NCBI GenBank assembly: GCA_012518355.1
Contig: JAAYSP010000219.1
Span: forward strand, 1-32,103
Direction of reading: 5' to 3'
Source: a candidate division WS1 bacterium
Lineage (GTDB): Bacteria > Armatimonadota > Zipacnadia > Zipacnadales > UBA11051
DNA: 32,103 nucleotides
This document shows positions 1,372-14,460 of the stretch, one piece after another. The notes under the pieces are model-generated. The model saw only the letters and a list, made by a program, of their open reading frames with translations, did no database searches and was not told the origin of the DNA. The translations under genes were made by a program, and so were the position numbers. Position 1 is the stretch's first letter. Every line of letters starts with the position of its first letter.

Positions 1372-2811
1372 TTATTTCTCGGATACCAGTCCTTCCAACT
1401 GGACTCCCGCCCGTTTGGCCGACAGAAGAATGGCGGGAACATACACTGCCTGGCTATCTTCCCCTCGAGCTTCGAACGCTTTCAATGCTAGTTCGTATAC
1501 CTGGGGGTCCCACTGCGACAGTTGTATCCATCCATTCTGCAGAGGTGAACCTGTGTATTGTGCAGAGCCACGCACCCCAGAGGCCATCAACGGATTATCT
1601 TCGTCCTGGTTCCACATCACTCTAAGCCAGGTGTTGACAAAGCGCTGCATATCCTCATCTGTAAACAGCACGCCTCTCCGAACTGCTTCCACCGGCAACT
1701 TGATGTCTATGTTGCCGTAGCCTATGGATTCATAGCTGTCTGGGCCAAAAAAGTGACCGGGCTCGCCAAATTCGATCCAATTCGAGTATCGCCAGTAGTA
1801 CGCATCGTTTTCCTCATCCAAGTAGACGTGGCTCTTGAAATAGCGCACCATCTGTTCGGCACGCTCGGCCATTAGGGGGTGGGCACCTTCCACATCCTTG
1901 AGCACCAGCCACACCAGGGCCAGTTCAGCGTACTGGTTGTGGGGCATGATGAGGTTTGGATACGGGTCAGTCAGATTGGGTTCAAAGCGATATGCTCCAC
2001 CCGTGTCTCCCATATCTAACCAGTCTCGCTCGAAATACTCAAATACATTGCGGTTGATGAAATCCAGGAAAGTTCGGGCGTCGGCGCCGAATTGTTCCTG
2101 AAGCTGTGGATTTTCTGCCACCGAAGCAATCAAACACGCCACAGCATACAAAAAACGGCCCTGATGCACTGCATATCGCAGCGGCTCCGGGGCCATGGTC
2201 CGTATCAGGAAGCGATCGCCCTGATGTGTCGGCCCGCTGATATTGAAGGTGAATGGCTCGATCTCAGTGATGGTCGCTTCGGCCCCATCGTACTCTACTC
2301 CGTCGACTATTATCTCGCGGGTAGTCCAGTCAACCAGACGAAAACGCTCCGCGCTCTCATGAAAGTCGACCAGATAAGTGTGTCCGTTGCACAACGCAGC
2401 CTGTTTGCCATCCCTATTCTTCTGTTGATCGGGCTCAATCTGGGCGTCTGACACATTGTGAAGTCGCTCGCTCCATGCAAGCGCCGACGAGTAGGCCGCA
2501 GTATACCAGCTTACATAACCATCGCCCTCTGGATCGCTGGCATTGGCCATGATGCGGTGGAAATGCTCACTTATCTTTTGCAGCCAGTATGGGTCTTCTG
2601 TAGCCTCCCACATGCTGGCATAATCGGCCATTACGGCGCCTTCAGCCCATCCCAGAGTACTGGAGTCAGCGCTCTCAGAGGAGCCTTTACCATCATTTCG
2701 AGCCATATCAAGAGTCTTGTATGCTTCCGCTAACTTCACCACATCCAGATCAGCGACTGCAAGAGCAACTGGCAAGCCAATCAGCAAAACCGCCAACACT
2801 ATTTCCTTCAC
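1372..2811 (-). CDS. Secreted protein of unknown function, probable helical-toroid fold (paralogue B)
   Basis: The protein has about 479 residues. The longest frame begins at 2868, but the GTG at 2811 is preferred: it has a GGAGGAG ribosome site a few bases upstream and puts the signal peptide (VKEIVLAVLLIGLPVALAVA) at the very N-terminus. The mature part is rich in Trp, Tyr and amphipathic helices, with repeated aromatic-acidic motifs (LGWAEG, GDGYVSWYTAAYSSA, AYYWRYSNWIEFGEPGH, QLSQWDP). This resembles (alpha/alpha)-toroid glycan-active enzymes such as lyases, unsaturated glycuronyl hydrolases and C5-epimerases, but I do not recognise a defined family. The neighbour at 2912 is a close paralogue. 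The stretch around residues 180-250 looks beta-rich and holds DGVEYDGAEATITEIEPF. Location is probably periplasmic or extracellular. Function is unproven. Confidence 0.75.
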   Translation of the reverse strand: MKEIVLAVLLIGLPVALAVADLDVVKLAEAYKTLDMARNDGKGSSESADSSTLGWAEGAVMADYASMWEATEDPYWLQKISEHFHRIMANASDPEGDGYVSWYTAAYSSALAWSERLHNVSDAQIEPDQQKNRDGKQAALCNGHTYLVDFHESAERFRLVDWTTREIIVDGVEYDGAEATITEIEPFTFNISGPTHQGDRFLIRTMAPEPLRYAVHQGRFLYAVACLIASVAENPQLQEQFGADARTFLDFINRNVFEYFERDWLDMGDTGGAYRFEPNLTDPYPNLIMPHNQYAELALVWLVLKDVEGAHPLMAERAEQMVRYFKSHVYLDEENDAYYWRYSNWIEFGEPGHFFGPDSYESIGYGNIDIKLPVEAVRRGVLFTDEDMQRFVNTWLRVMWNQDEDNPLMASGVRGSAQYTGSPLQNGWIQLSQWDPQVYELALKAFEARGEDSQAVYVPAILLSAKRAGVQLEGLVSEK

Positions 2812-2911
2812 TGCGCCTCTCCTCCATGACAGTCTTATTTCCTGACAGCATTTCGTTTGCCGCTGCACAAATAGCTACCGCGATCTTGCATGTGCACGCA
2901 CCGACATCCCA

Positions 2912-4336
2912 CTATTGCGCAGGTATTCGCCCCGCGCGAGCAGCGCTAAGAAGAATAGTGGGCACTGCCTCGGCTTGCTTATCCTCAGGCTGTGCGCTGA
3001 AGGTCTTCAAAGCAAGTTCGTACACCTTCGGGTCCCACTGCGATAGCTGCGCCCATCCGGTGGTCAACGGTGAACTCCCAAACGCTCCAATCCCATCCAC
3101 TCGCGCCGCCATGAGTGGGGTGTCTTCGTCCTGGTTCCACATCACCCGAAGCCAGGTGTTGACAAATCGCTGCATGTCCTCATCTGTAAATAGAACGCCG
3201 CGACGGGTTGCTTCCACCACCAACTTGATGTCTATATTGCCATAGCCAGTGGACTCGTATCGATCGGCAGCAAAATAGTGTCCGGGCTCACCGAATTCTA
3301 TCCAGTTCGAATAGCGCCAGTAATAGGCGTCGTTTTCTTCATCCAGGTAGACGTGGCTCTTGAAATAGCGCACCATTTGTTCGGCCCGCTGAGCCATCAG
3401 TGGATGCGCCCCCTCCACATTCTGCAGCACCAGCCACACACGCGCCAATTCCGCGTACTGGTTATGTGGGATGACACGGTTTGGCTGGCGTTCGCTTAGC
3501 CTCGGTTCAGAGCGATAAGCCCCTCCCATCTCGCCCATATCCAGCCAGTCGCGTTCGTTTTTCTCGAAGACATTGCGGTTGATAAACTGCAAGAATTGCT
3601 CAGCATCGGCGCCGAATTGCTCTTGCAGCTCAGGGCGTTGCTGAACCAATTCGATCAAACGCGCCACCGGATACAGGAAAAGACCCTGATGCACCACATG
3701 AGGAGTCGCTTCTCGGGCCATGGTTCGCACGATGAAACGATCGCCCTGGTGGGTGGGCCCTGTAATCGTGAATGCGAAGGGCTCGATTTGCGTCACTTCG
3801 GTCTCTCCGCCGTCATGTTCCAGTCCATCAGCGATTACCTCACGTGTGGTCCAATCCACGACGCGAAAACGTTGGGCATTCTCCAGGAAATCAATCAGAT
3901 ATGTGTGTCCGGTGGCTTTGGCGGCCGCAGTGATATCAGTGGCTTTCTGCACCGCCGGGTCCACCTTGGCGTCAGAAACGTTATGCAGCCTTTCCGCCCA
4001 GGCGACTGCGGCTGAGTATCTTGCAGTATACCAACTCAGATAACCCTCACCCTCAGGGTCGGAGGCGTTTGCCATGATCCGGTGAAAATGATCGCTTATC
4101 TTCTCAAGCCAATATACATCCTCAGTAGCCTCCCACATGTTGATGTATGAGGTTATGATGCCTCCCTCGCCCCAGCCCAGGTTGCCTGAATCTGGACTAT
4201 CGGAATAGCCCATGCCATCACGGCGCGCCATGTCGAAATCCTTATACGCCTCAGCCAGTTTTGCTACGTCAAGCGCCTGCGCCACACTAACTCCAGCCAC
4301 ACTTAACATCAAGCCCGCTACCAGCAGTTGTCTCAT
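2912..4336 (-). CDS. Secreted protein of unknown function, probable helical-toroid fold (paralogue A)
   Basis: The protein has about 474 residues from the ATG at 4336, which follows GGAGGAG by about seven bases and begins a clean signal peptide (MRQLLVAGLMLSVAGVSVAQA). The longer frame to 4414 lacks such support. It aligns along its whole length with the downstream paralogue at 1372-2811: shared blocks include DVAKLAEAYK, MWEATEDVYWLEKIS, HFHRIMANASDPEG, FINRNVFE, HPLMAQRAEQMVRYFKSH and WLRVMWNQDED. The conserved Trp, Tyr, Asp, Glu and His positions suggest a retained binding or active cleft in both copies. Both are read in the same direction with about 100 bases between them. The MFS gene at 4623 diverges from this gene, so the three may serve one substrate. 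The family was not recognised. Confidence 0.75.
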   Translation of the reverse strand: MRQLLVAGLMLSVAGVSVAQALDVAKLAEAYKDFDMARRDGMGYSDSPDSGNLGWGEGGIITSYINMWEATEDVYWLEKISDHFHRIMANASDPEGEGYLSWYTARYSAAVAWAERLHNVSDAKVDPAVQKATDITAAAKATGHTYLIDFLENAQRFRVVDWTTREVIADGLEHDGGETEVTQIEPFAFTITGPTHQGDRFIVRTMAREATPHVVHQGLFLYPVARLIELVQQRPELQEQFGADAEQFLQFINRNVFEKNERDWLDMGEMGGAYRSEPRLSERQPNRVIPHNQYAELARVWLVLQNVEGAHPLMAQRAEQMVRYFKSHVYLDEENDAYYWRYSNWIEFGEPGHYFAADRYESTGYGNIDIKLVVEATRRGVLFTDEDMQRFVNTWLRVMWNQDEDTPLMAARVDGIGAFGSSPLTTGWAQLSQWDPKVYELALKTFSAQPEDKQAEAVPTILLSAARAGRIPAQ

Positions 4337-4502
4337 ACGGCATCTCCTCCACCAGTTGGATTGCTGGACAACCGACACAATGCTGTACCATCTAACTTTT
4401 CTCCCTGCAACCACACCTTACCTTCAGCAACCAGATATCACTTTGGGCTCGTAATCTGGTTATGGCGGAGGCATAAAGCGCTGGTATTGAGATTTAAGTC
4501 GG

Positions 4503-5846: not shown

Positions 5847-5935
5847 CCGCACTGATAAGCAGCTCCGATTGGCTGTGGGCTTCGCACTCGCAAATCGCTA
5901 ACAGGAGATGACAGCTTTCGGAGCGCGCAGTAACG

Positions 5936-6007
5936 GCTCAGTGCCTCAGTGTGGAGTGTGACGCTCAGCTTCCCCCCTCGAATTTGGCGCCCTCACACTC
6001 ACTGAGC
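5936..6007. other. Imperfect long hairpin between MFS gene and csaB
   Basis: GCTCAGTG (5936-5943) pairs with CACTGAGC (6000-6007). After a four-base bulge, AGTGTG (5948-5953) pairs with CACACT (5994-5999). The loop is about 40 bases. No T-run follows, so a terminator role is uncertain. The gap between the two genes is 236 bases (5847-6082), and nothing else clear was seen in it. Confidence 0.3.
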
Positions 6008-6082
6008 TGACAGGTATCCACTTCTCCGCTGACGAACATCCATACCAGGACTGCGGTCGTCTCACTGTCATGAAACGATGCG

Positions 6083-7147
6083 ATGAAGCTACTATTGTCA
6101 GGCTACTATGGGTTCGGTAACGCCGGAGATGAAGCGATTCTGGAGGCCATCATCGCCGGAATCCGCCACCATATCCCCGATGCCGAAGTGACGGTGCTGT
6201 CGGCCGATCCCCAGGGCACATCTTCAGAGCACGGGGTTGAGGCTGCCGACCGTTGGAGTCTGCGGCAGCAATTCAGGGCCCTGCGCAGTGCGGATCTGTT
6301 CATACAGGGCGGCGGTGGGCTCTTCCAGGATACAACCAGCAAGCTCTCTGCCCTGTACTACATGAACCAACTGGTACTGGCCCGCATGACCCGAACGCCG
6401 TTTGTCATCCTGGCCCAGGGCCTGGGACCACTGTCAAGCCCCTTCCTGCGCGGCTCACTTGCGCGTAACTTCTCACGCGCCCGGCTTGTCACTGTTCGAG
6501 ATGAGCAGTCTTCCCAGGACCTCGTCACATGGGGTCTGCGTAGCCCCGAACCGCTTGTAACCGCCGATCCCGTGCTACTGCTGCAACCGGCACCACCGGG
6601 CCGCGTTCAGGAATTCTTGAGCGCGCTGGACTTGTCGGCAGGCGAGTACATCCTGGTTGCGCTTCGGCAGTGGCCTGATGCGGACAGCGCCTATGAGGCC
6701 GTAGTGCAGTGGCTAAATCAGCAGGAACGGCCAGTGCTACTGCTACCGTTTCAGTATGCGCATGACCTTCCTATCGCACAGCAGATCCTCGCACGCCTGA
6801 GGCCGGGCCTGGCCAGAATCCCAGATGCCCCTTGCCGCCCACGGGATATCATGGGTCTCATACAGGCCGCTCACGAAGTGCTTGCAATGCGTCTTCATGC
6901 GCTGATTATGGCTGCCGCTGTCGGCACTACAAGTGCAGGCCTGTCTTATGATCCGAAAATAGACGCCTTTTGCCAGCGCAGTGGGCAGCCGGTGAAAAAT
7001 CTGCATCTGCTGGCAACCAGAGACATCGAAGCATTGATACAAGCCGCAGACGACGGCCGCCATCACACCGAAAGCAACCGCGTCCGATTAAGACAGGATG
7101 CCTGGAGGACATTTGAGCTGCTTGCCGAAGTATGCTCTCGGCTCTAG
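6083..7147 (+). CDS. csaB: Polysaccharide pyruvyl transferase CsaB
   Basis: The protein has 354 residues, the usual length for CsaB. It opens with the family signature LLSGYYGFGNAGDEAIL (residues 3-19), then VTVLSADP, the glycine-rich QGGGGLFQDTTS (about residues 74-85) and ILAQGLGPLSSP. The C-terminal half carries VLAMRLHALIMAA (about residues 269-281) and the SYDPKIDAF segment, both typical. CsaB adds a ketal-linked pyruvate to cell-wall polysaccharide, which then anchors S-layer proteins through SLH domains. Its presence suggests SLH proteins elsewhere in this genome. The ATG at 6083 begins directly at the first beta strand; two nearby upstream ATGs are out of frame. The next gene follows after 119 bases. 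Confidence 0.93.
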   Translation: MKLLLSGYYGFGNAGDEAILEAIIAGIRHHIPDAEVTVLSADPQGTSSEHGVEAADRWSLRQQFRALRSADLFIQGGGGLFQDTTSKLSALYYMNQLVLARMTRTPFVILAQGLGPLSSPFLRGSLARNFSRARLVTVRDEQSSQDLVTWGLRSPEPLVTADPVLLLQPAPPGRVQEFLSALDLSAGEYILVALRQWPDADSAYEAVVQWLNQQERPVLLLPFQYAHDLPIAQQILARLRPGLARIPDAPCRPRDIMGLIQAAHEVLAMRLHALIMAAAVGTTSAGLSYDPKIDAFCQRSGQPVKNLHLLATRDIEALIQAADDGRHHTESNRVRLRQDAWRTFELLAEVCSRL

Positions 7148-7266: not shown

Positions 7267-9012
7267 ATGGAGTTGGCCGAACTTGGACATCGCATCGTGA
7301 CCATAGTGACGCTTTGCCTTCTGAATGGCCAGGACTACGAAAACCGCCCGTATGTGTTGCAGGAGTTGCGGAAATGCCCCGAGATGGTGGACTTCGTCGT
7401 CTTGCCCCACATGCCTTTTCTAAGCTTTGACACCGATCGTGCAGCTCGTGATTTGCGCCGTTTTTCTGATTTCGCACGTCAAAGACAGTGTTACCTGGCC
7501 CTCTCCATGACAGAACACGATGGCGATGACACCTACTTCACCGCCGTCTTGTTTGACCGCAAAGGCAACATGGCCGGCCGCTACCGGAAGGCACACGCTC
7601 TGGCCGATGATGTCACCGGCCCTGAACAACCAATCGCTATCGGAGATGAGCTGCCTGTCTTCGAGACCGACTTTGGTATCATAGGGATGACTGTCGGCAC
7701 AGACTTCTATATGCCTGAGGTCTACGAAGTAATCCGCATGAAGGGTGCCGATATCATCACCTGGCACCACTATCCTGAGCGGCTTCGCGACCACTGTACG
7801 TGGGAGCCCCTGCTGATGGCTCGTTGCGTTGACAGCCACGCGCATATGGTAACTGCCATGTATTCCCACGAGCGCACATACTTGACCAACGATTACTCAC
7901 AGCGTCGCGCCGGTTCGCCCTGGGGGCGCAGCATGATACTCAACCGGGTGGGTACTCCAGTCGCTGATACCGGCTACGAAGACGGGTTGGCAGTCGCGAC
8001 GGTCAACCTGGATAGGCGCAAGGTTGATGATGGCGTGGATTTCCGCCGGGAAAACATCTTCATAGTCAGCCATTTTGGTGATCGCAAGGCTCTGAGCCCG
8101 GTGGCTGAGCCGTACCAGAAGCCCGAATTGCCCGCATATGACAAACGCACATGCAGGCTGGCGATCGGCCACCTGCCTCTGGAAGACATATGGCGCGATG
8201 GGCAAGTCCCTGAGGCTATGTTGCAGCTACTCGACGATGCCGCAGCGGTCAAACCTGACCTTTTGCTGTTTTCCGAACAGAGCTGCAACGCTGAGGACGA
8301 GACCACTGCGCGCGTCATGGACATGGTGGCAGAGAAGGCGCGAGAACTGGACTGCTACATCGCGATCGGGGGCATCGGCAACTACGGACACAGCAGTGTC
8401 TGCCATGTATGGGATCGTAGTGGTGAGATTGTGTATGCCCAACCAATCTACTGGACACAGGGTTTCGACGAACTCGAAGTGTTCGATACTGATTTCGGTC
8501 GCGTGGGCTCTCATACATGCGGCGACCTGTTCACGCCACTTTTCGACCGTGTGCTGGCGCTCAAGGGGGCGGAGATAGTCATAGACCCCAGCCAGATGTG
8601 GGGGCCAAATGGCCGCCTGAATGAGGCGATGTTACGTTCTCGTGCGGCTGACAACGGCGTCTGGGTCGCCTGTGCACACTGGGGCAAATCAGACCCGGCA
8701 TTGCGTAGTGTGATCATAGACCCCTATGGCCAGGTAGTTGCCGCCTCCCAGTACGGTAAAGCCGATCTGGTAGTCTATGACATCAACCTCGATGACCAGC
8801 GTGCCTACTACGCAGAAGTAGCGCCTCCCAGAGGTGATGAGACGGTTGATCTGTCATGGTGGCCCGCAGTGGTGCCTCAGAGGCTGCCGGGTTGGCAGGA
8901 GATGGTGTTTGCTGCTCGTCGGCCAGAGCTCTACGGTATCATCCCGACCGTAAACGAAGTGTTGTTGCGCTACCGTCCGGAGAAATCGCCGTATGCTCCG
9001 ACGGAGGAGTAG
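7267..9012 (+). CDS. Tandem double-domain nitrilase-superfamily (carbon-nitrogen hydrolase) protein with split catalytic residues
   Basis: The protein has 581 residues and holds two consecutive nitrilase-fold domains, about residues 8-270 and 295-560. Active members use a Glu-Lys-Cys triad. Domain 1 shows VVLPHMPF, where His48 replaces the Glu; keeps the Lys in GRYRKAHAL (Lys108); and shows IGMTVGTDFYMPE, where Gly144 replaces the Cys. Domain 2 shows LLLFSEQS (Glu337) and GSHTCGDLFTP (Cys418), but the Lys segment reads GEIVYAQPIYW without Lys. Each half is therefore incomplete, and together they hold one of each residue. No signal peptide is seen, so it is probably cytoplasmic. GGGAG stands about ten bases before the ATG. 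An amidase or amide-transfer role, or a pure binding or scaffold role, are all possible. Confidence 0.88.
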   Translation: MELAELGHRIVTIVTLCLLNGQDYENRPYVLQELRKCPEMVDFVVLPHMPFLSFDTDRAARDLRRFSDFARQRQCYLALSMTEHDGDDTYFTAVLFDRKGNMAGRYRKAHALADDVTGPEQPIAIGDELPVFETDFGIIGMTVGTDFYMPEVYEVIRMKGADIITWHHYPERLRDHCTWEPLLMARCVDSHAHMVTAMYSHERTYLTNDYSQRRAGSPWGRSMILNRVGTPVADTGYEDGLAVATVNLDRRKVDDGVDFRRENIFIVSHFGDRKALSPVAEPYQKPELPAYDKRTCRLAIGHLPLEDIWRDGQVPEAMLQLLDDAAAVKPDLLLFSEQSCNAEDETTARVMDMVAEKARELDCYIAIGGIGNYGHSSVCHVWDRSGEIVYAQPIYWTQGFDELEVFDTDFGRVGSHTCGDLFTPLFDRVLALKGAEIVIDPSQMWGPNGRLNEAMLRSRAADNGVWVACAHWGKSDPALRSVIIDPYGQVVAASQYGKADLVVYDINLDDQRAYYAEVAPPRGDETVDLSWWPAVVPQRLPGWQEMVFAARRPELYGIIPTVNEVLLRYRPEKSPYAPTEE

Positions 9013-9188: not shown

Positions 9189-11936
9189 CTAATCAGAGGC
9201 GTTCGTTTGCTGCTCGTTTTCTCGCTGTGGTGTTAGCCACTGAGCCATCGCCAGCAGAAACACTGCTGCATACAGCCCCCACCCGAGCATCTGCACACTT
9301 GAGAAGCCCCATAGCTTGGCCAGGCTCATGGCTGCTACCGAACCGACAACCGATGTCAGGCCATTTATCCCCCATAGCCACGGGACCAGTCCGTCGCCCC
9401 ACGTCCCTACTGTGCGCAATCCACTGGGGAACGGCATACCGAGGAAAAAGCCAAGAGGAAACAGTAATGCCATGGCGATCAGGCAGCGATACCGGATGTC
9501 GTAAGCCAGTGTGGCGTCAACTATGCTCGGATATAACAGCTGGGCTCCCCAACCATAAAGCACCACTCCGGCCGCCGCAACCATCACAACCTGTGCCAAT
9601 CGCTGGATGGGCCAGCGCTGCGTGAATAGACTGCCGACTGATCCGCTGATAAGTAGCGCAAAAAGTATCGTCGAGAGGCTTAGTACCGGATAGCCGAGAT
9701 ACAGCACCAACTTCTGTATCAGCGAGATCTCTACCAGCATAAAGCCGACGCCCAGAAGCACGAAATAGCCGGCTGCACAAGACAGCCGCCCCCAGCTCAC
9801 GTTGCTATCACCCCCACGCACCGCCCCCATCACCAGCAGCAAGGAACTGACAATTGCGAGGGCCAATGCCCCGATCAGAAAGTAAGTGAACTGTCGGGGA
9901 ATACCGAACACCAGATCTACCACAAAAGGACTGTCATCGGTGCATGGGGTGATGTTGACGGGGTTCAATCCTCGGGCAGTCCACGACTGGTTGAACCGAG
10001 CGACATACTCGTCCGGACTGATATTCGCGTTATCCACAAGCAAATCGAACGGTGCGGGGACGTAAAAACCCGGGATATAGGCCGGGTCGAAACCGCATCC
10101 TACCACCTGTTTCCCGAACTGCTCAGCTGTCGAAGGCGCAATCGGGCTGCGAGACACAATCAGCAAATGCCGGTATGGGCCCATGAAGTAAGCACCGGGT
10201 GGGGCGCTGACTGCCAAAAAGTGGTCCATAGACTGCTCATAAGAGACGCCCGTTTTCGCCAGCGCCTCTCTCGCAGTCAGCATCGTCCGCAGCAGGATGA
10301 GCGATTCCTGACATACGAAAGCGATTTTACCATCATCGCTTAGGTGGTTCAGGCAATCTACGAACGCTTCTCTGGTATGTATGTAGCTCTCCACAAGCGC
10401 AAGACTCGAGGCCGCGGTGGTGGCGGTCTTGGTCAGGGCCATGTAAATCATGTCGTACTGTCGGCCTGAGCGACGCAGGAAGCTGCGCCCCTCGTCCACA
10501 TAGATGGACACGTTTTCGTAGTCATACACGTGGCCCGTAAAGTCGCCATACCGGCGCACTATCCGCGGGATTGACGGATTCAGCTCTGCACCATGGATCT
10601 CCTTGCTGCCCACAGCAAGCGCAAGCAGGATGTCCAGGCCGCCGCCGGGACCAATCAGCATAACGCTGTCGGGCCGAAATTGCTGGAAGGCGATGAAACC
10701 GATGAAGCTCCGCAGACGTCCCTCCAGAGGCCGTAAATCGCCATCGAACGCTATCATGTTAGTCGGGACTTCGCCGTCCGTATAGACGTACAGGTCATCA
10801 GTCGGATCGAATTCTCCCGCCGAATTGGCATATGCGACAACATCGGTACGTGCAAACGCGTTCCATTCACTGTCCACGATCTTCGCATTGACCTGAGGAT
10901 CAGCCAACTCTTGGTACAGTGGCTTTGCCAGAGGGTCATCTTGCAGAGGGAGCATCGGCAAATCAACATAGCGCCCGTAGAGATTAGCCACCAGCATCGC
11001 GCTCAGCGCCACGAACACTACGCCGGGGCCTGCCATGCCGCGGAGTCCCATGCCGGCAACCAATGCAACTCCGAGAATAGCGCCGCCAACTACTAAAGCA
11101 GCGCCCAGAGAGCCGCTCGCAACGGCCGACGGTAGCGAAATCACAATTGCGGTAAGATTCACAAGACCGATTACCGCTAATGCTATCGAGGTTGGTCTGT
11201 CACGCTGCCAGATCATGTACCCGAGGCATGCGGCAGTCACGAACATCACAATCCAGAACAACACTCCGGAGATGGCTTCAAACACGTACATGAAGACTGC
11301 AACGGAGACGGCAACCACCGCGATTCCCCACGCCAGACTGACGACACCGGCAAGCCGGACACTTCGGTTCTGCCACGCCAATGCCAGGGCTCCGGCGACA
11401 GACAGCAGCCCGCATACCAAAGCCGCGTTGATGGCCCCCACCATCTGCAGCACCGCGATGACGCCAAAACTGCCTATGGCTGCCCCTACCAGGTCCGCAA
11501 AGTATAGTCGTCCGCTCTCGGCTGAATACTGTGCAAAAGCTCTGCTCAGTAGCAAGCCTGCTGTCAGGAAGGGGATGATGCACACGAGGCTGACCACCCA
11601 CACCGAGGTCAGTTTGGCCGACAGAGGGCTGGCGAACAGCAATAACGTGACCACCGGATACAATACAGCAGTAAGCAGCGCCCGTATGGTCAGTTGGGTG
11701 GGTACATGCGACTGTGGAGAGCGCCTGTAGAGTAAGTGGTCAAGCAGGCCGCCAACTCCCAGACCGCAGGTAGCTAGAGAGATGGCCAGAAAGACGAAGT
11801 GGTAACGCAACAGAACAGAAAAGGCTCTGGTCAGAGCCACCTCGAATGCCAATACTGACATGGCAGCGGCGAAAACCGCCACTGCCACTGCAAGGCCTGA
11901 CCTACGTTCCTGACGGTCTGAGTCGGGGTGCATCAT
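9189..11936 (-). CDS. Large membrane protein with spermidine-synthase-like (SAM-binding) domain
   Basis: The protein has about 915 residues: roughly ten N-terminal membrane helices, a soluble Rossmann domain and about six C-terminal helices. Residue numbers below count from a GTG at 11969, which would overlap topA by 14 bases; the paired ATGs at 11936/11933 avoid that overlap and are preferred, with weak ribosome sites in every case. YFADLVGAAIGS (about 156-167) is typical of membrane-embedded spermidine-synthase-like proteins. The soluble part has the nucleotide-binding loop LIGPGGGLDILLAL (438-451), the acidic AELNP (461-465) and VDEGRSF (491-497). Where polyamine synthases have Asp gate residues, this protein reads YDMIYMALTKT, so aminopropyl transfer is unlikely. 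SAM or decarboxylated-SAM binding is plausible; the real reaction is unknown. It lies directly downstream of topA. Confidence 0.8.
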   Translation of the reverse strand: MMHPDSDRQERRSGLAVAVAVFAAAMSVLAFEVALTRAFSVLLRYHFVFLAISLATCGLGVGGLLDHLLYRRSPQSHVPTQLTIRALLTAVLYPVVTLLLFASPLSAKLTSVWVVSLVCIIPFLTAGLLLSRAFAQYSAESGRLYFADLVGAAIGSFGVIAVLQMVGAINAALVCGLLSVAGALALAWQNRSVRLAGVVSLAWGIAVVAVSVAVFMYVFEAISGVLFWIVMFVTAACLGYMIWQRDRPTSIALAVIGLVNLTAIVISLPSAVASGSLGAALVVGGAILGVALVAGMGLRGMAGPGVVFVALSAMLVANLYGRYVDLPMLPLQDDPLAKPLYQELADPQVNAKIVDSEWNAFARTDVVAYANSAGEFDPTDDLYVYTDGEVPTNMIAFDGDLRPLEGRLRSFIGFIAFQQFRPDSVMLIGPGGGLDILLALAVGSKEIHGAELNPSIPRIVRRYGDFTGHVYDYENVSIYVDEGRSFLRRSGRQYDMIYMALTKTATTAASSLALVESYIHTREAFVDCLNHLSDDGKIAFVCQESLILLRTMLTAREALAKTGVSYEQSMDHFLAVSAPPGAYFMGPYRHLLIVSRSPIAPSTAEQFGKQVVGCGFDPAYIPGFYVPAPFDLLVDNANISPDEYVARFNQSWTARGLNPVNITPCTDDSPFVVDLVFGIPRQFTYFLIGALALAIVSSLLLVMGAVRGGDSNVSWGRLSCAAGYFVLLGVGFMLVEISLIQKLVLYLGYPVLSLSTILFALLISGSVGSLFTQRWPIQRLAQVVMVAAAGVVLYGWGAQLLYPSIVDATLAYDIRYRCLIAMALLFPLGFFLGMPFPSGLRTVGTWGDGLVPWLWGINGLTSVVGSVAAMSLAKLWGFSSVQMLGWGLYAAVFLLAMAQWLTPQRENEQQTNASD

Positions 11937-11955
11937 ACTGGCACAGGCCTGCCTA

Positions 11956-14460
11956 TCAGTTTTCGGCACCGGTATCCAGGTCGCGAGTGAATCTGCATTT
12001 GGGGAATCCGCTGCAACCCACGAACTTTCCTCGCCGTCCTGACCGCACCATCAACGGCTCGCTGCATTCAGGACATGCTTCATCCAACTTTTGCGTCTCA
12101 GGACGCGGGTAGCCTGCATCGTACGCCACTGACATAGGCTTGTAATTCTTGCACTTCGGATACGCCGAGCATGCCACAAATTTGCCTCTGCGCCCACTTC
12201 TCACTACCATGGGTGCTCCACACTTGTCACACTGTAAATCTAGTTGATCGCCTGAAGCAGTCTGGCCAGTGCCGCCTCCGGTAGCTCTCCTGCCCTCGGT
12301 TGATGCAGCCGAATCGCTTTCACCTGTATCAGAGGCCTCCAGCGATTGAGTATGGCGGCACCTGGGAAAATTGCTGCAGCCGAGAAACTCGCCACGGCGG
12401 CCCTGTCGCACGATCATCTTGCCGCCACACTCAGGACATTCGACATCAGTCTCTTTTGGCGGTGGCAACGGCTGACCATCTGGGCCAAGCCTCTCGATGT
12501 ACTCACACTCAGGGTAGCCGCTGCACCCTATGAAGCGCTGTCCCCGGCGGCTGACACGGGACATCAGCGGTTTACCACACTCAGGACAATCGCGTCCGAC
12601 CTCCTCGGGTTCTCGATCCGGCAGAACATCCGTGAGCAGATCGCGCGTATAGTCGCATTCCGGATAGTTTTCACATCCGGCAAACTTACCATACAGGGAG
12701 AAGCGTTCCTGCAGTCTTCCCCCGCATTTAGGGCAAACCTCACCCTCCAATATTTGGGGCTCAGCTCCGGCGGCAGTCTCCACCTCCTGAGCAAAGCCCT
12801 TGTAGAAGCGCTTCAGGAGCCCCTGCCAACGTAGCTTGCCGGCCTGGACATTGTCTAGTTGCTGCTCGACATTGGCCGTAAATTCCACATCCACGATATC
12901 GGGGAAGTTGGCCAGCAGATAATCGTTCACTACAAAGCCTAGCACTGTCGGCATGAACGTACGCTGCTGCATGTAAACATATTCGCGTTGGCGCAAGGTC
13001 TCTATGGTTGGGGCGTAAGTGCTGGGCCGGCCAATGCCGTTTTCTTCCAGTGCACGAACCAGTGACGCCTCTGTAAAGCGTGGCGGAGGCTTGGTGAAAT
13101 GCTGAGCGGGTAGCACCTCTCGCAGGTCTAGCACCTGTTTCTCTTCGAGTGTGCGCAGAACTTCTGTTTCCGTCTCGTCCCGTTCCTGAGGCAGCACACT
13201 CAGATATCCCGGGAATTGCAGTATAGAGCCTCCAGCTCGCAACCCGTATTCGTCGGCGCTAATCTGCACCGCGATTTCGTCATAGACCGCAGGGGCCATC
13301 TGACTGGCGACGAAGTGTCGCCAGACAAGCTCGTACAGTCGTGCCTGGTCCCGATCCAAATAGCGTGCCATTTGTTCGGGAGTTCGGGATACCTCGGTGG
13401 GGCGGATTGCCTCGTGAGCATCCTGTACGCCCTTACGCCTTTTGCCAGTGATACCTTTGCCGACAAATTTGTCACCAAACTGCTCAGCAATCAAGCGCCG
13501 TGCCTGTTGCTGTGCCTCATCCGCCACACGCGTTGAGTCGGTTCGCATATAAGTTATCAGGCCAACCGTACCTTCAGCGGTCTCCACGCCTTCGTACAAT
13601 TGCTGAGCGATGCGCATAGTCTTGTTGGCTGAAAAGTCCAACTTACCTGCGGCGGTGCGCTGGAGAGTGCTGGTACGGAACGGTGGCTGCGGTGAGCGTC
13701 TTACCCGCTTGTGACCGATGTTTTCGACCTGATAGCGGGCACGTTGCAGCTCTTCGACTATGGGCTGGACTTCGGCTTCGGTGCTGGGGTTCAGTTCTTC
13801 TTCGCCCTTGGTTTTCAATTCCGCGGTAAACTGTTCGCCAGATTTATCGGTAGCCAGCAACACCTCGATAGTCCAGTACTCTTCGGGCACAAAAGCAGCT
13901 ATTTCACGTTCACGGTCACAGATGATCCGCAAAGCGACAGACTGCACTCGTCCTGCGCTCAGAGCACCTTTCTTCCCTCGACTACCGATGCGTGACCATA
14001 GTACTGGACTGAGCATATACCCGACCAGGCGGTCCAGAATCCTCCGCGCCTGCTGAGCGTTGACTCTAGACATATCAATACTGCCCGGTTGTTCCAGCGC
14101 TTTTATGACTGCATCTTTGGTGATCTCATTGAACTCAATGCGTTTTGGGTCCTCGAGCTGTAGAGATTCCACCAGGTGCCAGGCGATTGCTTCGCCCTCC
14201 CTGTCAGGGTCAGTAGCAATGTAAACCTCATCAACACCACGTAGTTGTTTCTTGAGCTCACTCACTGTCTTGCGTTGTGAAGGGATGGTGGTGTAATCAG
14301 GCTCAAATTCATTTTCTACATCTACTGCGAGCCCTCCTTTGGGCAAGTCCCGAACATGCCCACGCGAGGCTAACAGTGTGTAGTCTTCACCAAGAAACCG
14401 TGCCAAAGTCCGTGTCTTGGTCGGCGATTCAACTATGATTGCTTTGCGTTTTGATTTCAA
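11956..14460 (-). CDS. topA: DNA topoisomerase I (type IA) with five C-terminal zinc ribbons
   Basis: The longest frame starts at a TTG at 14475 (839 residues). The TTG at 14460 is preferred because GAGGG lies eight bases before it and the product then begins MKSKRKAIIVESPTK, as in other TopA proteins. In longest-frame numbering: Toprim domain about 10-125 with the acidic DPDREGEA (89-96), the catalytic Tyr309 in ITYMRTDSTRV, and GRPSTYAPTIE in the later core. The C-terminus has five four-cysteine zinc ribbons in a row (CPKCGG..., CPECGK..., CPECGG..., CDKCGA..., CPECSE..., each closed by a C-x5-C pair), separated by a Ser/Thr/Gly-rich linker between the third and fourth. It relaxes negative supercoils. 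It follows dprA by about 47 bases and is probably co-transcribed with it. Confidence 0.96.
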   Translation of the reverse strand: MKSKRKAIIVESPTKTRTLARFLGEDYTLLASRGHVRDLPKGGLAVDVENEFEPDYTTIPSQRKTVSELKKQLRGVDEVYIATDPDREGEAIAWHLVESLQLEDPKRIEFNEITKDAVIKALEQPGSIDMSRVNAQQARRILDRLVGYMLSPVLWSRIGSRGKKGALSAGRVQSVALRIICDREREIAAFVPEEYWTIEVLLATDKSGEQFTAELKTKGEEELNPSTEAEVQPIVEELQRARYQVENIGHKRVRRSPQPPFRTSTLQRTAAGKLDFSANKTMRIAQQLYEGVETAEGTVGLITYMRTDSTRVADEAQQQARRLIAEQFGDKFVGKGITGKRRKGVQDAHEAIRPTEVSRTPEQMARYLDRDQARLYELVWRHFVASQMAPAVYDEIAVQISADEYGLRAGGSILQFPGYLSVLPQERDETETEVLRTLEEKQVLDLREVLPAQHFTKPPPRFTEASLVRALEENGIGRPSTYAPTIETLRQREYVYMQQRTFMPTVLGFVVNDYLLANFPDIVDVEFTANVEQQLDNVQAGKLRWQGLLKRFYKGFAQEVETAAGAEPQILEGEVCPKCGGRLQERFSLYGKFAGCENYPECDYTRDLLTDVLPDREPEEVGRDCPECGKPLMSRVSRRGQRFIGCSGYPECEYIERLGPDGQPLPPPKETDVECPECGGKMIVRQGRRGEFLGCSNFPRCRHTQSLEASDTGESDSAASTEGRRATGGGTGQTASGDQLDLQCDKCGAPMVVRSGRRGKFVACSAYPKCKNYKPMSVAYDAGYPRPETQKLDEACPECSEPLMVRSGRRGKFVGCSGFPKCRFTRDLDTGAEN

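Follow-up and report, generated by a model that had tools for sequence, protein, structure and literature searches.

The window (the whole stretch of DNA analysed here, 32,103 nucleotides from a candidate division WS1 bacterium of the Armatimonadota) encodes at 7267-9012 a protein in which two nitrilase-like domains are fused and neither holds a complete Glu-Lys-Cys triad, half 1 having only the Lys and half 2 only the Glu and Cys. The ORF is intact, with an ATG at 7267 and the stop at 9012, and its 581 aa product, in which a signal peptide is not visible, matches a single Pfam family, PF00795 (CN_hydrolase), in two stretches (143 bits against a cut-off of 23.2); none of the named NCBIfam nitrilase/amidase equivalogs was reached, the best scoring 80.7 bits against a cut-off of 500. 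An earlier note on this DNA had offered three accounts of the complementary pattern: an inactive pair used for binding, an enzyme with a composite site shared by the halves, or a new chemistry using His48. The features on which the argument turns are as follows.

7267..9012, plus strand: tandem nitrilase-fold protein (intact ORF, PF00795 in two stretches, orthologs in 18 genomes)
7288..8121 (residues 8-285), plus strand: half 1, a predicted pseudo-domain that has neither the catalytic Glu nor the Cys (aligned by profile with single nitrilases; site states in orthologs)
7408..7410, plus strand: His48, catalytic Glu position (H, Y, L or F among orthologs)
7588..7590, plus strand: Lys108, catalytic Lys position (kept in 16/17 orthologs and 11/11 sister-family rows)
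7696..7698, plus strand: Gly144, catalytic Cys position (G, S or T among orthologs)
8131..8994 (residues 289-576), plus strand: half 2, a nitrilase domain with Glu and Cys and without Lys (profile alignment, predicted fold)
8275..8277, plus strand: Glu337, catalytic Glu position (17/17 orthologs)
8446..8454, plus strand: Ile394-Tyr395-Trp396, with Ile or Leu at the Lys place and Trp396 invariant (ortholog and profile alignments)
8512..8520, plus strand: His416-Thr-Cys418, an invariant His at -2 of the invariant nucleophile Cys (18/18 orthologs)

Each half was aligned profile-profile (hhalign) with 14 single-domain nitrilases from Armatimonadota, with a probability of 100 in both cases. In half 1, His48 falls on the catalytic Glu, Lys108 on the Lys and Gly144 on the Cys, and in half 2 Glu337 and Cys418 fall on the Glu and Cys; the five residue positions given in the earlier note are exact by this alignment and by the ORF. 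The place of the half-2 Lys is occupied by Ile394 when compared with a sister tandem family (see below) and by a gap when compared with the single-domain set, with a Lys in neither alignment, and the loop that follows (residues after Trp396) is shorter than in relatives. The profile alignments agree with the picture of a tandem CN_hydrolase whose first half lacks Glu and Cys and whose second half lacks Lys.

The full-length AlphaFold model, run on a shallow alignment of three sequences, has a mean pLDDT of 41 and is unusable for distances or domain packing. Half 2 folded alone with a six-row alignment (pLDDT 62, pTM 0.68) gave a model in which strands end at Ile394 and just before His416, and whose best matches are all nitrilase-superfamily structures (top match 2w1v, E 2.7e-15, TM 0.56). 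The alpha-beta-beta-alpha fold is thus predicted for half 2 by a model of moderate confidence, and for half 1 by profile alone. Both fold and profile are shared with single-domain amidases such as Nit2 (2w1v), PH0642 (1j31) and N-carbamoylputrescine amidase (5h8i), which differ in carrying the full Glu-Lys-Cys set in one domain and in being single-domain chains that dimerise. By descent and predicted fold the protein is a member of the nitrilase superfamily, its status as a functional nitrilase or amidase being putative, and it fits a tandem nitrilase in which one nucleophile has been lost (half 1) and one kept (half 2).

Homologues with the same fused order and the same losses, which the earlier note had suggested looking for, are present in 18 of 291 Armatimonadota genomes (ortholog threshold E < 1e-100), spread over nine GTDB families, some of them beyond the window's class, and are 49-71% identical to the window protein. 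Both halves are under purifying selection of similar strength, with pairwise dN/dS values of 0.06-0.36 for the ortholog pairs with unsaturated dS, which argues that half 1 is kept despite its apparently dead site; the losses have become fixed across a family that is conserved and under selection, and the earlier note was right to doubt random decay. Over 16 long orthologs, half 2 has 62 invariant positions at a mean identity of 58%, and half 1 has 42 at 56%. The half-1 Glu site is His only in the window's own GTDB family (6/6 members) and Tyr, Leu or Phe elsewhere, and at the half-1 Cys site no ortholog has Cys. Lys108 is replaced by Gln in one ortholog, L050. In half 2, His416, which is specific to this family, and Trp396 are present in 18/18 orthologs, as is Cys418, and the Lys in 0/18. 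The catalytic positions of half 1 drift within a well-conserved domain, whereas the nucleophile and base of half 2 do not. No relocated, conserved Lys or Arg was found near the half-2 Lys place among the orthologs. Position 398 was considered as a substitute for the catalytic Lys and rejected: it is mostly Lys or Arg, but is Gln in the window and Ser or Glu in others (the exceptions being the window, L042, L043 and L048).

Signal-peptide-like starts, judged by eye, are found in orthologs L041-L043, L046-L048 and L051, and likely in L040 also, while all four members of the window's genus lack one. Since many distant orthologs have such a start and the window's genus does not, the protein has probably been relocated in the course of the family's history, being probably extracytoplasmic in many relatives and cytoplasmic in the window's genus. 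Scans of viral contigs (protein scans and a pattern scan) found no relatives. The Armatimonadota genomes of this family carry many nitrilase-fold proteins, with as many as 10 matching loci in a single genome, and several of these have extra N-terminal regions (L033 1171-2934 and others).

The gene's surroundings are conserved only locally. Its upstream neighbour is

6083..7147, plus strand: csaB, polysaccharide pyruvyl transferase (TIGR03609 above cut-off)

which by synteny comparison adjoins the nitrilase in one congener only and is not a family-wide partner; no neighbour is conserved across the ortholog family beyond close relatives. One congener shares with the window a cluster made up of an MFS transporter, csaB, the nitrilase and two paralogs of unknown function. 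These paralogs (window 1375-2868 and 2915-4414, minus strand) are adjacent proteins of 498 and 500 aa that are 69% identical; their N-termini resemble signal sequences, neither matches a Pfam or NCBIfam model, and they form a pair in one congener too. On the other side (9192-11969, minus strand) lies a 926-aa protein, also without a Pfam or NCBIfam match, in which hydrophobic segments can be seen by eye to flank a spermidine-synthase-like stretch.

The history of the protein is illuminated by an unnamed sister family of tandem nitrilases from about ten Armatimonadota genomes (L011/L064, L012, L054-L057, L059-L063), which likewise consist of two fused CN_hydrolase halves with the same C-terminal RRPELYG motif and an apparently dead half 1, in which the Lys is kept and Gly stands for Cys. 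They differ in having about 200 aa extra at the N-terminus, in being only 27-30% identical across the tandem region, and in a half 2 with a complete Glu-Lys-Cys triad. The Glu place of their half 1 is Met or Gln, with a Glu one residue further on as a possible stand-in. In a tree of 65 domains the halves 1 of both families cluster (SH-aLRT 93), as do the halves 2 (98), and the two families share common ancestry; the program warns of long branches meeting, and this support is good, albeit not final. The simplest reading is of one fusion, with half 1 already dead in the common ancestor of the two families and the half-2 Lys lost later in the window's family. Because the death of half 1 would predate the split of the families and the Lys loss would follow it, the complementary losses would be the sum of two events.

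A literature search found no paper on tandem or pseudo-nitrilases of the window's kind. A parallel is provided by a Rhizobiaceae 'nitrilase-related carbon-nitrogen hydrolase' (for example WP_006313564, pAtC58), encoded on Agrobacterium and Rhizobium plasmids (L082 264-2015; L086 6001-7752, which is pAtC58 529894-531645). This is also a fusion of two nitrilase domains, of 583 aa, in which one half has a complete triad and the other lacks the Cys. Its order is the mirror image, with Glu-Lys-Cys in half 1 and Glu-Lys-Gly in half 2, its identity is about 24%, and its gene follows the urea ABC transporter genes urtBCDE. The pairing of one complete and one predicted dead half is seen in two lineages, in opposite order.

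We consider it moderately probable that the window protein descends from an ancient single fusion in which half 1 has become a dimer-partner pseudo-domain and half 2 provides the only functional pocket, remodelled without Lys, with catalysis putative. Functional nitrilase-superfamily proteins are described as being built on a dimer that forms across the A-surface (PMC4700190). Half 1, in which the loss of Glu and Cys is ancient, would have been retained because of its fold, most likely to take the place of the second subunit in an intramolecular pseudo-dimer. In half 2, Glu337 as base and Cys418 as nucleophile would be held by selection and may still be catalytic; the Lys would have gone together with some of its loop, leaving the invariant His416 and Trp396 beside the pocket residues in sequence, His416 perhaps with a role in the pocket. 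The pocket could have been remodelled for a Lys-independent substrate or step, such as covalent acyl capture or transfer, or hydrolysis with the oxyanion stabilised by another group. That this pocket is in use is suggested by the retention of Cys and Glu without exception and by the invariant His at -2 of the Cys, and either turnover or binding only, covalent or not, would be compatible with it. A more specific form of this proposal, that half 2 is an active, Lys-independent enzyme working through Cys418, Glu337 and His416 with half 1 as its obligatory intramolecular pseudo-subunit, we put forward only tentatively.

The apolipoprotein N-acyltransferase Lnt performs acyl transfer via the Cys of a nitrilase fold, but is a membrane protein with a full triad and a fourth residue, a Glu, all required for activity (PMC5500890). 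The catalytic Lys is normally part of the oxyanion hole, Glu343 of Lnt stands in the loop after the Lys, and both the K335A (Lys) variant and a variant of E343, the fourth residue, are inactive (PMC5500890). Against remodelling, half 2 has no Lys and its loop is shortened where the fourth residue would stand, Ser377 appears from the alignments to occupy the place of a conserved Asn that supports the Glu, and His416 at -2 could be structural. A possible, though less probable, alternative is that both halves are catalytically dead and that the protein serves in binding, sensing or as a scaffold, with Cys418 and Glu337 holding a ligand or the fold. The requirement for Lys in Lnt, a characterised relative (PMC5500890), speaks for it, as do the loss of the half-2 Lys throughout the orthologs with no relocated basic residue and the degeneracy of half 1. 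It does not readily account for the contrast between the halves, in that the half-1 nucleophile has been lost to Gly, Ser or Thr, yet Cys418 persists together with Glu337 over nine families. The inactive pair proposed in the earlier note therefore stands in part: a dead site is likely for half 1, and for half 2 it is a live rival to the remodelled pocket.

Far less probable is the composite site, in which Lys108 would complete a triad with Glu337 and Cys418, either within a chain or between chains. The kept residues are formally complementary, and Lys108 is nearly constant among the orthologs. In the nitrilase fold, however, the Lys is carried by an internal strand of the domain to which it belongs, normally far from the partner's pocket. 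The sister proteins, which have a Lys in half 2 as well, keep Lys108 equally, and this argues that Lys108 is retained for some reason other than serving half 2. It can also be lost: L050, with Gln108, yet keeps Glu337 and Cys418, has no half-2 Lys and shows no rescue. In view of these two observations, the shared site envisaged in the earlier note is not supported.

The third suggestion of the earlier note, that His48 serves a new chemistry in half 1, is more improbable still; the residue is constant in the window's GTDB family, but the Tyr, Leu or Phe found there in other orthologs refutes it as a family-wide mechanism, and a half-1 Cys is found in none. Least credible of all is a decaying gene or sequencing artefact. 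Most of 18 independent genomes have an unbroken frame and carry the same residues, and dN/dS is well below 1, which refutes this account for the family. Damaged copies do exist: L035 (JAUWAU010000014.1, about 5900-6590) is clearly a broken remnant of this gene family, in which a start resembling a signal peptide and the opening residues of half 1 run straight into the central part of half 2 before a frame break, and the copy in G252 is frame-broken and in two pieces.

In summary, comparison of these sequences defines a conserved subfamily, as yet without a name, of tandem nitrilase-fold proteins whose first half is predicted to be dead and whose second half lacks the Lys; the automatic label 'carbon-nitrogen hydrolase' is unsafe for it. 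In the nitrilase superfamily the Lys is regarded as indispensable, and this subfamily, which has maintained Cys and Glu without it across a phylum, is a natural case on which the rule can be tested. The dead first half, seen beside a sister family with one dead and one apparently live half, documents in two steps how a homodimeric enzyme may turn into a single chain of enzyme and pseudoenzyme.
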